Part shown: in pieces, positions 2,535 to 6,593 of the stretch
Numbering within the stretch: position 1 is the first letter of the stretch
Layout: each line of letters begins with the position of its first letter
Source: Deltaproteobacteria bacterium
GTDB lineage: Bacteria; Bdellovibrionota_F; JAHFAK01
Length of the DNA: 6,863 nt
NCBI GenBank assembly: GCA_023250585.1
Contig: JAHFAK010000059.1
Location: forward strand, 1-6,863
Direction of reading: 5' to 3'
Notes under the pieces: model-generated
Told to the model about the DNA's origin: nothing
Seen by the model: only the letters and a program-made list of their open reading frames with translations
Databases searched by the model: none
Translations under genes and position numbers: made by a program

Positions 2535-2936
2535 TTAATTTTTCTCCAAAGTAAGTACACATTTTTTATGGTCAACTGAATATTTAAAATGCTTGAGAAA
2601 ATTAAGTCCTAATAAAGCTTCAACATTCCGCTCAGGTCGAATACAGACTATGTCAATATTTGTTACAGCACACTCTGAGGAATAAACTAAGAGTTTCTGA
2701 GTTCTTATACGGTATCCTGCTTCTGTCCCTGCTGGGCTACTTACAAGTGCATGGCCTAAGAACTCACTACAATGAGGAGTGTAACCAAGATTTTCCATAA
2801 TGCGCGGATCAACCATAGTCGTACTTGCACCAGTGTCTACTAAAAAATCTAGAATGACTTGTTTAGTGGTTCTGTAGATAATTCCAGGGATGATAATATA
2901 GTCATATTTTTGGGGAGAGAAAGGAATGTTAACCAT
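2535..2936 (-). CDS. Retropepsin-like (clan AA) aspartic protease, cytoplasmic
   Basis: This is a short single-domain protein of 133 residues from the ATG at 2936. A TTG at 2942 would add two residues. The active-site signature FLVDTGAST has its catalytic Asp at residue 34 (36 from the TTG). A hydrophobic flap-side stretch follows, and the C-terminal ALLGLNFLKHFK matches the usual hydrophobic-hydrophobic-Gly near the end of retropepsin halves. Proteases of this fold work as homodimers, each copy giving one Asp. No signal peptide is seen, so it should act in the cytoplasm. The ATG overlaps the stop of the preceding small gene by 8 bases, and GAGAG about 9 bases upstream favours ATG over TTG. 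The substrate is unknown. The partner gene is a natural candidate for substrate or regulator, but that is inference. Confidence 0.82.
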   Translation of the reverse strand: MVNIPFSPQKYDYIIIPGIIYRTTKQVILDFLVDTGASTTMVDPRIMENLGYTPHCSEFLGHALVSSPAGTEAGYRIRTQKLLVYSSECAVTNIDIVCIRPERNVEALLGLNFLKHFKYSVDHKKCVLTLEKN

Positions 2937-3180
2937 GTTCAACGACTCTCATCATTCCTCGTGCGCCAATAGCTTCTCCGAGATTACCCGTATATCTAAT
3001 TATATAAGCGTCATATTCAAAAAGATCACATCGACTAAGTAAAACATCAAGTTGAGCATCATGGTCCAGTACCTCACCAGATTCTAGATGGGTAGGATCA
3101 TCAGGTGAACATAATGGATCGATTATAACGACGTGCTCATTTGGATAATATAATTTAATTTCGTTCCACGTTCTTTTCAT
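2929..3180 (-). CDS. Small protein paired with the retropepsin-like protease
   Basis: I do not recognise a named family. From the ATG at 3180 it has 83 residues; an ATG at 3201 would give 90. I prefer the inner start because the opening MKRTWNEIKLYYPNEHVVI resembles small proteins I recall next to retropepsin-like proteases in other bacteria, which begin with a Trp, a Lys and then a Tyr-Pro. Neither start has a clear ribosome site. The protein is acidic in the middle (SPDDPTHLESGEVLDHDAQL), has no membrane segment or signal peptide, and ends RYTGNLGEAIGARGMMRVVE, which looks like a beta strand followed by a helix. It overlaps the protease gene by 8 bases, so the two are almost certainly translated together. 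Roles as substrate, inhibitor or antitoxin-like partner are all untested. Confidence 0.7.
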   Translation of the reverse strand: MKRTWNEIKLYYPNEHVVIIDPLCSPDDPTHLESGEVLDHDAQLDVLLSRCDLFEYDAYIIRYTGNLGEAIGARGMMRVVEHG

Positions 3181-3251
3181 TTTAATAGAAAAATACCACA
3201 TATTTATTAAAGAGTCTATCTTCTCACTAAAGTATTCTATCCGCCTTCGCA

Positions 3252-3279
3252 GAGTACCATGGCTTTAGCCGTGGGGCTC
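3252..3279. repeat. GC-rich palindromic unit between two minus-strand blocks
   Basis: CCATGGC (3257-3263) pairs with GCCGTGG (3268-3274) across a TTTA loop, with one T.G wobble. GAG (3252-3254) can pair with CTC (3277-3279) outside a two-base internal loop. The unit fills most of the 87-base gap between the lamin-tail lipoprotein stop and the small gene start, and it is far richer in G+C than its surroundings. No T-run follows on the minus strand, so it is not a classic intrinsic terminator. The GGCTTTAGCC core resembles the hairpin ends of IS200/IS605-type elements, but no transposase or tnpB is present. It could equally be a dispersed REP-like unit. Confidence 0.5.
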
Positions 3280-3288
3280 CATCCTAAT

Positions 3289-4431
3289 TCATTGAGGAAC
3301 ATAACCTGGCGAGAATAAAATATTTGGATACACTTCACTATGAAGTACCAAAGAAGGGGACGAGAAAGAAGCTCTTGTCAGTGATTGATTTTTTCCTGCC
3401 TCACTGCCGTACGTTACTTTATTAATAACGGTTTCGTTGGATAGAATAAAAATGCTCGACCCGCTATTTGAAAGAGACAAAGATTTATTGCTGACGAAGG
3501 TCTTCGTATTGTTTAATTTTTCTATAGGTGTACCACCACTAAAAAGAACTATAAAACTTTTTGCAGGTATTATCTGGCCGGTTTCCCATTCATGCTTAAT
3601 CGTTGTTTCTTTACCAACGGCTATTTTAATACGAGAAAGATCTATTGCATGATTTTGCGTATTATAAATTTCAATAAATTCATCTTCGCTGCTACTTCTT
3701 ATGCCATCTTGATTCGCATCTCCATCATTCCCATCAGGTGGATCAGCAAGTATTTCATTAATAATAAGATCATTTTCATTGATTATGCTTTCTGTATCGG
3801 CTTCTTGAATTTCTTCTGATGGATCTTGAAGATCTTGAATTGTTTCAACTTCAGGAGTATTTCCCGAAGGAGCAGTTTTAAATGATCCAAAATACGGCAT
3901 TACTCCAATTAAATTATTATCAATAATATCGCTTATCAAAATGAGATACGTTTTCGAATGCTCAAGCTCTTTTGTAGGGCTAAAAGTCAGGATATTCTTT
4001 TGAATCTCAATGCTTCCTTTAATAGGCGGCGAACACCACGTTTTTGTATCGCCAGCATTAATTTCTTCAAGTATATCTTTAATTTTTGAATGTAATTCTT
4101 TTAAATAAATGCTATTTTCTATTTCTGTTCTTAAATAATACAGATTTTCAAGTTCACTCATAGCTACCTCTGAATTTTCTATACTACACAGAGCAAATGA
4201 ATATGAAGTAATTGATGGGGTATACAGATCGTTTGTGAACGTAACCTGAATTGCATCCGTAGTATGTGCATAAATAGTAGAAAAATTTTTCTCGCTTGTA
4301 TCCATTGGTTCAGTATTCACTACCCGAGTTTGTTTATTCATCGTTTCTTGAAAAACGTCGGTTATGTCATGTTCTCCACAATTAATGAATAGTAAAAGTA
4401 GTGTCATAAAAAAGTTGATTTTAATTTTCAT
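3289..4431 (-). CDS. Probable lipoprotein with Ig-like and lamin-tail domains
   Basis: The protein has 380 residues. A short charged, hydrophobic leader ends in LLLFINCG, giving a probable lipid-anchored Cys18. The -1 residue is Asn, looser than the standard lipobox. Residues about 58-187 read as an SbsA-type bacterial Ig-like domain: IQVTFTNDL near the start, ILTFSPTKELEHSKTYLILI at 147-166 and a closing FGSFKTA. Cys82 and Cys133 could form a disulfide. An acidic linker (about 190-220) precedes a lamin-tail domain (221-375). That domain has INEILADPPDG, a likely calcium-binding DANQDG loop, EDEFIEIYN, LSLSNSGSSIFIL, and the QSLTR and SPG signatures near its end. The start overlaps the preceding gene by 11 bases and has a GAGG ribosome site at 4439-4442. 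It is probably an envelope or surface scaffold protein; the ligand is unknown. Confidence 0.8.
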   Translation of the reverse strand: MKIKINFFMTLLLLFINCGEHDITDVFQETMNKQTRVVNTEPMDTSEKNFSTIYAHTTDAIQVTFTNDLYTPSITSYSFALCSIENSEVAMSELENLYYLRTEIENSIYLKELHSKIKDILEEINAGDTKTWCSPPIKGSIEIQKNILTFSPTKELEHSKTYLILISDIIDNNLIGVMPYFGSFKTAPSGNTPEVETIQDLQDPSEEIQEADTESIINENDLIINEILADPPDGNDGDANQDGIRSSSEDEFIEIYNTQNHAIDLSRIKIAVGKETTIKHEWETGQIIPAKSFIVLFSGGTPIEKLNNTKTFVSNKSLSLSNSGSSIFILSNETVINKVTYGSEAGKNQSLTRASFSSPSLVLHSEVYPNILFSPGYVPQ

Positions 4432-4930
4432 ATAAAATCCTCAACCTTTCTTCGAGCTCTAATAATCTTATTTTTTCTGCATCATTTTTTTCTTCATTAC
4501 TTTGTAATGCTTGTATTTGAAAATGAAGAGAGGTAATTTGATTGAGTTTTTGTAATTTAAATTCATAGAGATTAAAAATATCTTTCAAAATTTTTGGTTC
4601 GGCATCATTATAGAGAAGGCCTTTAAAATCCCATGAAATCGAGCCTCCAAAAGAAACTCTATTGTTGTTATCAAGATCGGTGTTAATCCCACTTCCGTTA
4701 GTTCCAATGCTCACAGTATCCTGACGATTCTTGTCAGCATCAAGTTTAATTTCAGGTAAAAGAAAACTACGGCGGGATTTTTTTAATAACTCAAAATCTT
4801 TTTGTATGAGTGAATTAACAAACATTGTTCCTCGATTTTTTATTTCTTCAAAAGATGCTTCATTTCCAAAAGTCACGCTTTGGAAAATAAAGATTAATAA
4901 ACTACTTATAATAAGCTGATAATAATTCAT
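4421..4930 (-). CDS. Exported protein with a TolC/OEP-like hairpin module (second copy)
   Basis: The protein has 169 residues and no named family that I recognise. Residues 1-22 form a signal peptide (a hydrophobic run ending SVTFGNEA). Residues 25-55 look helical. A strand starts at LLPEIKLDADKN (57-68), then a Gly/Asn/Thr-rich turn, then a second strand VSFGGSISWDFKG (92-104). A long charged helix runs to the end (about 110-168), including an LLELEERLR coiled-coil-like tail. This strand-turn-strand-helix order, with PE at the first strand and W-hydrophobic-G at the second, resembles one repeat of TolC/OEP outer-membrane efflux proteins. Those are normally over 400 residues with two such repeats. 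It overlaps the upstream paralogue-like gene by 29 bases and the lipoprotein gene by 11. No ribosome site is evident, which suggests coupled translation. The function is unknown. Confidence 0.68.
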   Translation of the reverse strand: MNYYQLIISSLLIFIFQSVTFGNEASFEEIKNRGTMFVNSLIQKDFELLKKSRRSFLLPEIKLDADKNRQDTVSIGTNGSGINTDLDNNNRVSFGGSISWDFKGLLYNDAEPKILKDIFNLYEFKLQKLNQITSLHFQIQALQSNEEKNDAEKIRLLELEERLRILYEN

Positions 4931-5609
4931 GATATTTATTTTTGAGACTCAGTAACTCTCGTTTATGGTTGATTTCTTCTCCATCTAAATTCCACAAAGC
5001 ATAAATACTTCCGCTATAAAACGTATCGTTTTTTACTCCATCTATTTTTTTGGTACTGCTATATTGGTAAGCTGCCGCTATATTTACCTCGGGAATATAA
5101 GGGTAGTAACGTAATGACTTTAATAACTCATCAATCATCATGATTGGTTTTTCAAACTTTTTGTCTTTAAATCGCTGATTCGGGATATAGTTGCTTGAAA
5201 AAATAATTTTATTATCCTTAATACTCAATGTGTATGCTTCATGCTCTTTTTCTCTTGTCGAAGGATTAAATGGCTCTTGTTTCTCCTCAATCAAATTAAA
5301 GTCTCGATCAAAAATAAATTGTTGTACGTTTGTATAAAAAATGATTGTTTGAGAACGGGTATTAAAACGTATATCAACAATATCTTGATTAAGTAACTCA
5401 TCACTTCGGAATTGCATCCAAGGACTATACAGATTATTTTTTATAAAGATTTTTTTTCCATCGATGACAATAAAAGTATTGATACTCGAAAAATAATGAG
5501 CTTCTTGAGGATTTTCTAAAGAAAGATTATCGGTAATATCAATTGGAGCGGGCAGGGCATAGAGATATGAGGAAACGATACCTATAAGTAAGCTTAGAAA
5601 AAAACGCAT
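4902..5609 (-). CDS. Exported protein ending in a TolC/OEP-like hairpin module (first gene of the cassette)
   Basis: The protein has 235 residues from the ATG at 5609. A TTG at 5627 would add six residues, but the ATG opens directly into a clean signal peptide (MRFFLSLLIG, probable cleavage after YLYA at about residue 18). The middle (about 25-155) is rich in beta strands, with short repeats such as TFIVIDGKKIFIKNN and TIIFYTNVQQFIFDRDFNLI, like blades of a propeller or sandwich. I recognise no family there. The C-terminal 70 residues carry LKSLRYYPYIPEVNIAAAYQ, then FYSGSIYALWNLDG and a helix KRELLSLKNKYHELLSAYY. This matches the module in the next gene. The product should be periplasmic or in the outer membrane. 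A hairpin over the start codon may control translation. Confidence 0.68.
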   Translation of the reverse strand: MRFFLSLLIGIVSSYLYALPAPIDITDNLSLENPQEAHYFSSINTFIVIDGKKIFIKNNLYSPWMQFRSDELLNQDIVDIRFNTRSQTIIFYTNVQQFIFDRDFNLIEEKQEPFNPSTREKEHEAYTLSIKDNKIIFSSNYIPNQRFKDKKFEKPIMMIDELLKSLRYYPYIPEVNIAAAYQYSSTKKIDGVKNDTFYSGSIYALWNLDGEEINHKRELLSLKNKYHELLSAYYK

Positions 5610-5827: not shown

Positions 5828-6205
5828 ATGTACATTTCTAAAGTAATAGACAAAAATTATAGATATTCATATAATCATCATATGGAAGATCCATTAATAA
5901 AACGGTTTCTCGATTTAATCACTCCGGAAATCACCCATATACATGAGATATATCTTTTTGGTTCACGATCTCGCAATGATTTTTCTCCAGATTCGGATTA
6001 TGATATTTTAATTGTAGTACATAAAAAAGATCACGCTATGATCAGTAAATTATATGATGCAGTCATGGATATTTTACTTGAGACCGGAAAATTAGTTTCA
6101 TTAAAAATATATCCTCTGGCCGAATTCAACCGTTTAAAATCAATTCCCACTCCGTTTATGAGTAACATTTTAAAAGAAGGTAAAAAAATTGGAATCAACC
6201 ATTAA
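5828..6205 (+). CDS. MNT-type minimal nucleotidyltransferase (antitoxin-like partner)
   Basis: The protein has 125 residues and belongs to the small DNA polymerase beta-like nucleotidyltransferases. The core is IYLFGSRSRNDFSPDSDYDI (41-60), with the glycine-serine pair at 45-46 and two metal-binding aspartates, Asp57 and Asp59. The third strand reads VSLKIYPLAEF (90-100) and lacks the third acidic residue of classical enzymes, as is common in the versions paired with HEPN proteins. In studied MNT/HEPN pairs the nucleotidyltransferase adds AMP to the HEPN partner and silences it; that role is inferred here from family and context. An ATG at 5882 would give a 107-residue form that starts closer to the conserved core. 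Neither start has a strong ribosome site. The gene overlaps the HEPN gene by 17 bases. Confidence 0.88.
   Translation: MYISKVIDKNYRYSYNHHMEDPLIKRFLDLITPEITHIHEIYLFGSRSRNDFSPDSDYDILIVVHKKDHAMISKLYDAVMDILLETGKLVSLKIYPLAEFNRLKSIPTPFMSNILKEGKKIGINH
6175..6180 (+). promoter_or_regulatory. Ribosome binding site for the HEPN gene
   Basis: AGAAGG lies eight bases before a TTG at 6189, inside the end of the nucleotidyltransferase gene. It is the best ribosome site in the window and it decides the start, since no ATG is available before the conserved HEPN helices begin. Confidence 0.65.
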
Positions 6206-6593
6206 AAAATTGATAGAAGGGTATATTCAGAAAGCCATGCAGAAGATGGCTGTTGCAGAAAAATTGTATAATTCCAAAGATTATGAAGATGCTGTTTCGC
6301 GAGCCTATTATGCTGCTTATCATGCTACTCAAGCACTGCTTTTAACTGAAGGGGAACAAGCCAAAACTCATAAAGGCGCAGTTACGCTTTTTGGATTATT
6401 CTTTGTTAAGACCGGTAAATTCAAAAAGAATATAGGAAAATATCTTGCTAACCTTAAAGACGATAGGGAAAGTGGAGATTATGAAGTCTTTTCGTATATT
6501 GATGAAGAAACAGCAAAAATAGCAATGAATGAGGCTAAAGAGTTTCTTAAGGAAGCACAACTCTATTTAAAAACTTTTATTGTAGAAAAATAA
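6189..6593 (+). CDS. HEPN-domain protein paired with the MNT nucleotidyltransferase
   Basis: The protein has 134 residues and is all helical. It starts at TTG, supported by AGAAGG eight bases upstream. The HEPN signature is SRAYYAAYHATQALLLTEG (37-55), then KTHKGAVTLFGLFFVKTGKF (59-78) and a final region DDRESGDYEVFSYIDEETA (91-109). This matches the HEPN family typically encoded beside minimal nucleotidyltransferases. Toxic HEPN RNases carry an Arg-x(4-6)-His motif near the last helices. Here the corresponding segment reads RESGDY (93-98) without a histidine. The only Arg-to-His pair with that spacing is Arg38-His45 in the early helix. RNase activity is therefore uncertain, and a nucleotide-binding or adaptor role is possible. 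The 17-base overlap with the upstream gene implies coupled translation and complex formation. Confidence 0.88.
   Translation: MESTIKKLIEGYIQKAMQKMAVAEKLYNSKDYEDAVSRAYYAAYHATQALLLTEGEQAKTHKGAVTLFGLFFVKTGKFKKNIGKYLANLKDDRESGDYEVFSYIDEETAKIAMNEAKEFLKEAQLYLKTFIVEK

Follow-up and report, generated by a model that had tools for sequence, protein, structure and literature searches.

A three-gene cassette on the minus strand of the window

The window, by which we mean the whole stretch of 6,863 nucleotides that was analysed, carries two short genes for exported proteins, here called W1 and W2, and a third gene that overlaps the second. The relevant features are the following.

4902-5609, minus strand: W1 (gene 1), an open reading frame with an ATG start (5627 with the upstream TTG), 241 aa; signal peptide, reduced beta-rich (propeller-like) domain and a single hairpin unit at the C-terminus
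4980-5093, minus strand: hairpin segment of W1, PEVNIAAAYQ...SGSIYALWNLDG, placed by pairwise and profile alignment
4421-4930, minus strand: W2 (gene 2), 169 aa; signal peptide and one half-TolC unit
4625-4756, minus strand: hairpin segment of W2, from Pro59 to just past Trp100, placed by invariant residues and model strands
3289-4431, minus strand: third gene, 380 aa; Big_5 domain and Lamin tail domain (LTD)

Both open reading frames described in an earlier, sequence-only reading of this DNA were present on the minus strand, and the peptides quoted there were exact. W1 and W2 each begin with a signal-peptide-like stretch, as read from the sequence, and neither matched any family in a Pfam search. 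The third conserved member of the cassette, which the earlier reading had not included, is the Lamin-tail lipoprotein gene directly downstream of W2; the N-terminus of its product is lipoprotein-like (...LFINC), and Pfam detected the LTD above the cut-off (E 8.9e-13) and Big_5 below it (6e-4). With overlaps of 29 nt between W1 and W2 and of 11 nt between W2 and the third gene, the three minus-strand genes likely form an operon.

W1 and W2 are linked through a widely distributed protein family

The sequence-only reading had proposed that W1 and W2 share a hairpin module. The peptides align as it described, but the pairwise likeness taken alone is close to chance: the direct BLASTP alignment was weak (E 0.028, a single comparison), and when W1 was shuffled 5000 times, 957 of the shuffles scored at least as well against W2 in phmmer as W1 itself. 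The link between the two proteins is firm because of their relatives, not because of this pairwise alignment. A search with W2 found a class-mate genome at E 3e-6 and, at E 1e-3, a protein from an unrelated genome that combines a propeller-like region with one C-terminal hairpin, and a three-row profile matched 22 of 290 genomes at E ≤0.01. Some of the weakest matches of this profile (a Lon-like protease, an adenylosuccinate-lyase-like protein and a coiled coil) were judged on inspection to be clearly chance. The curated family comprises about 150 modules with an invariant or near-invariant Pro and Trp, corresponding to P59 and W100 of W2, both invariant in the 53-row alignment (A7), and in BLAST comparisons some modules find as many as 97 of the 106 others. 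When the whole genome G000 was scanned with a family profile free of window sequences, W2 was the sole match (E 8.1e-11).

Members of the family were found in all five genomes of the class of G264, in seven of eight genomes of the phylum of G219, in 68 of 195 of the phylum of G176 and in 41 of 46 of the phylum of G132 and G269, where they occur in 28 of the 29 good genomes. A scan of named genomes, for which the query was a closely related set of four sequences, recovered 44 loci in Myxococcota, other 'Deltaproteobacteria', Nitrospirota (including Thermodesulfovibrio and a MAG labelled Nitrospira japonica), Omnitrophota and Melainabacteria. Module searches of Pfam, NCBIfam and PDB sequences yielded no family name. 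In the databases and the mostly open-access literature searched, half-TolC proteins, an association of LTD proteins with TolC, and TolC-like proteins with propeller or HhH domains were undescribed. Judged from these searches, W2 is a member of a large, widely distributed and undescribed family of exported one-unit proteins.

W1 was missed when G000 was scanned with the window-free profile, and its place in the single-unit family comes from shuffle tests only. Just three of 5000 shuffles scored as well as its hairpin region against this profile, three of 5000 as well as its N-terminus when matched to the propeller segment of gene 1 from relatives, and none of 5000 as well as the whole mature protein against the full gene-1 profile. 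A profile score of 36 bits for W1 was set aside, as W1 itself had been included in that profile. The N-terminus of W1 resembles the last blades of a propeller and its C-terminus the unit, which supports reading the extra beta-rich domain noticed in the earlier reading as a reduced propeller. By these alignments W1 is the cassette's gene 1 in a strongly diverged form. The charged helix that had been described after both hairpins is predicted in W2 but is short in W1, where the chain ends a short way into the helix that follows the hairpin and is devoid of the terminal helices. A tree suggests that a duplication took place independently in the G219 phylum; it left W1 and W2 unplaced on long branches and did not settle whether they descend from the myxobacterial pair.

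One unit per chain in three recurrent gene arrangements

All 154 open reading frames of the family contain one unit per chain and no second unit, the sole apparent double match being two pieces of one module, and the unit is almost always C-terminal. Three arrangements were observed. In arrangement (i), gene 1 encodes a beta-propeller of the Sortilin/Ycf48 type followed by the unit, and gene 2, encoding either the unit alone or, often, a ComEA-like HhH domain and the unit, follows directly; with a Big_5/LTD lipoprotein gene in third place, this order recurs in Myxococcota and related lineages. Arrangement (ii), found in Nitrospirota and Omnitrophota, consists of a single gene for a propeller and the unit, and arrangement (iii), found in the phylum of G132, of a single gene for the unit. 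The Big_5/LTD lipoprotein is usually encoded by the next gene in arrangements (i) and (iii); one phylum has it at 27 of its 30 loci, and it follows the hairpin gene at many other loci too. In relatives having both genes, gene 1 sits directly upstream of gene 2, so the adjacent pair seen in the window recurs elsewhere; relatives with only one such gene show that the pair is not obligatory. The window holds a reduced form of arrangement (i), with W1 in the place of gene 1, followed by W2 and the LTD protein. The N-domain of a typical gene 1 is like the BNR beta-propellers of Ycf48 and sortilin, but differs from them in being followed by a C-terminal half-TolC unit, and W1 retains only a reduced, weakly recognisable part of it.

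Two further neighbourhoods were recorded. In G027 (L013, 1-5595), a propeller-hairpin gene lies between dnaB/rplI-like genes and a run of genes named from sequence as bamA-, ompH/skp- and lpxD-like; this run is directly downstream of the hairpin gene, a neighbourhood that would fit an outer-membrane role of the hairpin protein. In the class-mate genome (L011, 10164-11045, minus strand), a gene for a secreted protein with G-V-Y-N-P repeats of about 22 residues is divergent from the hairpin gene.

The family unit corresponds to a single TolC-type repeat

Members of the OEP/TolC family are defined by two tandem repeats in a chain of more than 400 residues and by a trimeric, 12-stranded outer-membrane barrel. 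We compared a profile of 147 family units with 25 full-length TolC proteins using hhalign. The family aligned to the C-terminal TolC repeat with a probability of 91.6% (E 8e-7) and to the N-terminal repeat with 82.1% (1e-5), each in one comparison, and both alignments span the hairpin and the following helix. Controls remained low, with 1.2% for the reversed family, at most 0.7% for 20 column shuffles and no more than 0.5% for any of 14 unrelated profiles; the two TolC repeats matched each other at 99.7%. With single-lineage subsets of the family, the values dropped to 27-30% or 4-11%. OEP was also the Pfam family matched by the largest number of members, 8 of 53 as compared with 2 for the next, with a best E of 0.0014, which is below the cut-off; W1 and W2 had no OEP match at that cut-off, and the family profile matched none of the PDB sequences.

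The AlphaFold2 model of W2 (pLDDT 78, pTM 0.52) contains a helix at 27-57, strands at 60-66 and 93-99 and helices at 110-143 and 150-168, and a relative from locus L174 was modelled with the same order of elements (pLDDT 79, pTM 0.61). Both models have the helix-strand-strand-helix topology of a TolC repeat. Foldseek with the L174 model returned OprN first, and TolC-family channels were the commonest relatives, accounting for about 14 of the best 50 chains, at weak E values that were all 0.3 or worse. In VIA-align, 145-151 of 176 residues of this model superposed on one repeat of VceC (72-277), OprN (38-240) or TolC (206-417) at 4.5-5.9 Å with a Z of about 5, no higher than for some unrelated helical proteins or designs. 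The matches listed by VIA-align for the W2 model were mainly helical hairpins, with no TolC chain among them.

Like TolC/OEP proteins (PF02321), the family has a helix-strand-strand-helix order, an LLP-like motif before strand 1 and a Trp in strand 2. It differs from them in having one repeat per chain (W1 241 aa, W2 169 aa) and shorter helices, in its propeller or HhH N-domains, gene pairs and LTD lipoprotein partner, and in scoring below the Pfam cut-off. We conclude that the family unit is a single TolC-type repeat, in agreement with the proposal of the earlier reading that each of these short exported proteins carries one TolC/OEP-like unit; common descent of the family unit and the TolC repeat is likely, though not proven. 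W1 and W2 may work like TolC, but they are not filed as OEP/TolC because they have neither a two-repeat chain nor a score above the Pfam cut-off.

TolC-type proteins coexist with the family: three complete ones are encoded in G000, and matches above the cut-off were found in 12 of 12 genomes tested. Since both occur in the same genomes, the single-unit proteins do not replace TolC. The sequence-only reading had taken full-length TolC homologues in the genome as a sign of decay, and the three in G000, together with the shortness and adjacency of W1 and W2, would suit a full-length TolC gene that was broken by a frameshift and decayed into fragments. However, each open reading frame has its own signal peptide, and single-unit genes are kept in most genomes of two phyla, those of G132/G269 and G219. 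Because they are conserved across phyla as separate, signal-peptide-bearing genes, they are not decay products; conservation refutes the frameshift explanation, which we regard as extremely improbable.

A candidate short outer-membrane channel

The explanation that we favour, and consider fairly probable, is that W1 and W2 belong to a family with one TolC-type repeat per chain whose chains build a short outer-membrane channel. Each unit would run from a helix through a beta-strand, a loop and a second beta-strand into a long helix and a further helix, with both chain termini in the periplasm, and a barrel in the outer membrane would be assembled from amphipathic hairpins, one from each chain. 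About six chains would be needed for the short channel, presumably as a homo-oligomer where there is a single gene and probably as a mixed W1/W2 oligomer in the window. The N-terminal attachments, be they a propeller, a ComEA-like HhH domain or, as in W2, almost nothing, would be placed at the periplasmic mouth of the channel, and the LTD lipoprotein would act as an envelope partner.

It is also conceivable, but in our estimate rather unlikely, that the proteins have the fold or ancestry of a TolC repeat without spanning the membrane; the hairpin would then serve for oligomerisation, in the periplasm or at the surface, within an envelope scaffold or an adhesion complex. The modelled strands are short (7-9 residues) and the loop between them is of low confidence, the helices of the unit are shorter than those of TolC, and surface proteins often have propeller, Ig-like and LTD partners, all of which would agree with such a role. 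Against it, both hairpin strands alternate strongly between hydrophobic and polar residues (z 16-17 versus within-strand shuffles), and the hairpin has a near-invariant Trp, as expected of barrel strands, and TolC is matched in both of its repeats.

Returning to the channel reading, protomers of outer-membrane factors consist of two structural repeats, which have been attributed to gene duplication (PMC8277102). Single-repeat relatives would allow channel formation by unduplicated TolC units to be asked directly, and whether single units preceded the TolC duplication or derive from it becomes addressable. The recurrent cassette of propeller plus unit, HhH plus unit, LTD lipoprotein and ComEC-type hydrolase, which almost every genome of at least one phylum carries, suggests an envelope machine that has so far gone unrecognised.

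A possible connection with nucleic acids

A more specific form of the channel explanation, which we regard as doubtful, is a nucleic-acid port in which the half-TolC oligomer would pass DNA across the outer membrane, while the ComEA-like HhH domains would serve as DNA receptors in the periplasm, partnered by a ComEC-type metallo-hydrolase and the LTD proteins. In many loci of relatives, gene 2 is fused to a ComEA-type HhH domain. This domain matches ComEA (TIGR01259/TIGR00426), but it is joined to a half-TolC unit, scores below the NCBIfam cut-offs and is absent in the window. Of 30 loci in one phylum, 21 have a gene for a ComEC_Rec2-type metallo-beta-lactamase (MBL) protein within 1.5 kb, and such a gene adjoins the cassette in several Myxococcota loci. 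In one phylum, the gene that diverges from the cassette has the C-terminal domain of ComEC (TIGR00361) as its best NCBIfam match (E 1e-30); unlike ComEC, this hydrolase is stand-alone and has no ComEC membrane channel, and it is not found beside the window cassette. Two such stand-alone ComEC-type metallo-hydrolase genes, both divergent from the hairpin gene, as at 21 of the 30 loci of one phylum, are:

L155, 7632-8693: stand-alone ComEC-type metallo-hydrolase
L163, 6709-7701: stand-alone ComEC-type metallo-hydrolase, lipoprotein-like

Bacterial LTDs are known to occur beside MBL hydrolases and nucleases, and in the nuclease ExeM (PMC6085458). On the other hand, Pfam detected neither HhH nor MBL domains near the window cassette, and the ComEC-type matches of G000 are on other contigs; the copies in Nitrospirota and Omnitrophota mostly stand alone, and HhH and MBL domains also serve other functions. 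Taken from the relatives, these associations suggest that the cassette may handle DNA, nucleic acid being the sole specific hint as to its cargo. That several phyla have an outer-membrane DNA port made of single-repeat TolC-like subunits and combined with ComEA-like receptors and a ComEC-type hydrolase, and with it a living single-repeat form of the TolC fold, is put forward here as a speculative proposal with the chances against it; if true, the single-repeat form would make the duplication origin of TolC testable.

Other features of the window

On the minus strand, a gene for a VKOR domain fused to a DsbA-like thioredoxin domain (1272-2465) adjoins lspA (751-1260) and a dapF-like gene (2-754), and at 2535-3201 a retropepsin-like aspartyl protease gene overlaps a 90-aa gene without family. 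On the plus strand, Pfam identified a toxin-antitoxin-like gene pair of a nucleotidyltransferase (Polbeta/NTP_transf_2) and a HEPN protein at 5828-6593. A palindromic, GC-rich element, ccatggctttagccgtgggg, lies at 3255-3280 of the plus strand, with seven copies in the genome and none in the backward control; we read it as a REP or IS200-like element.
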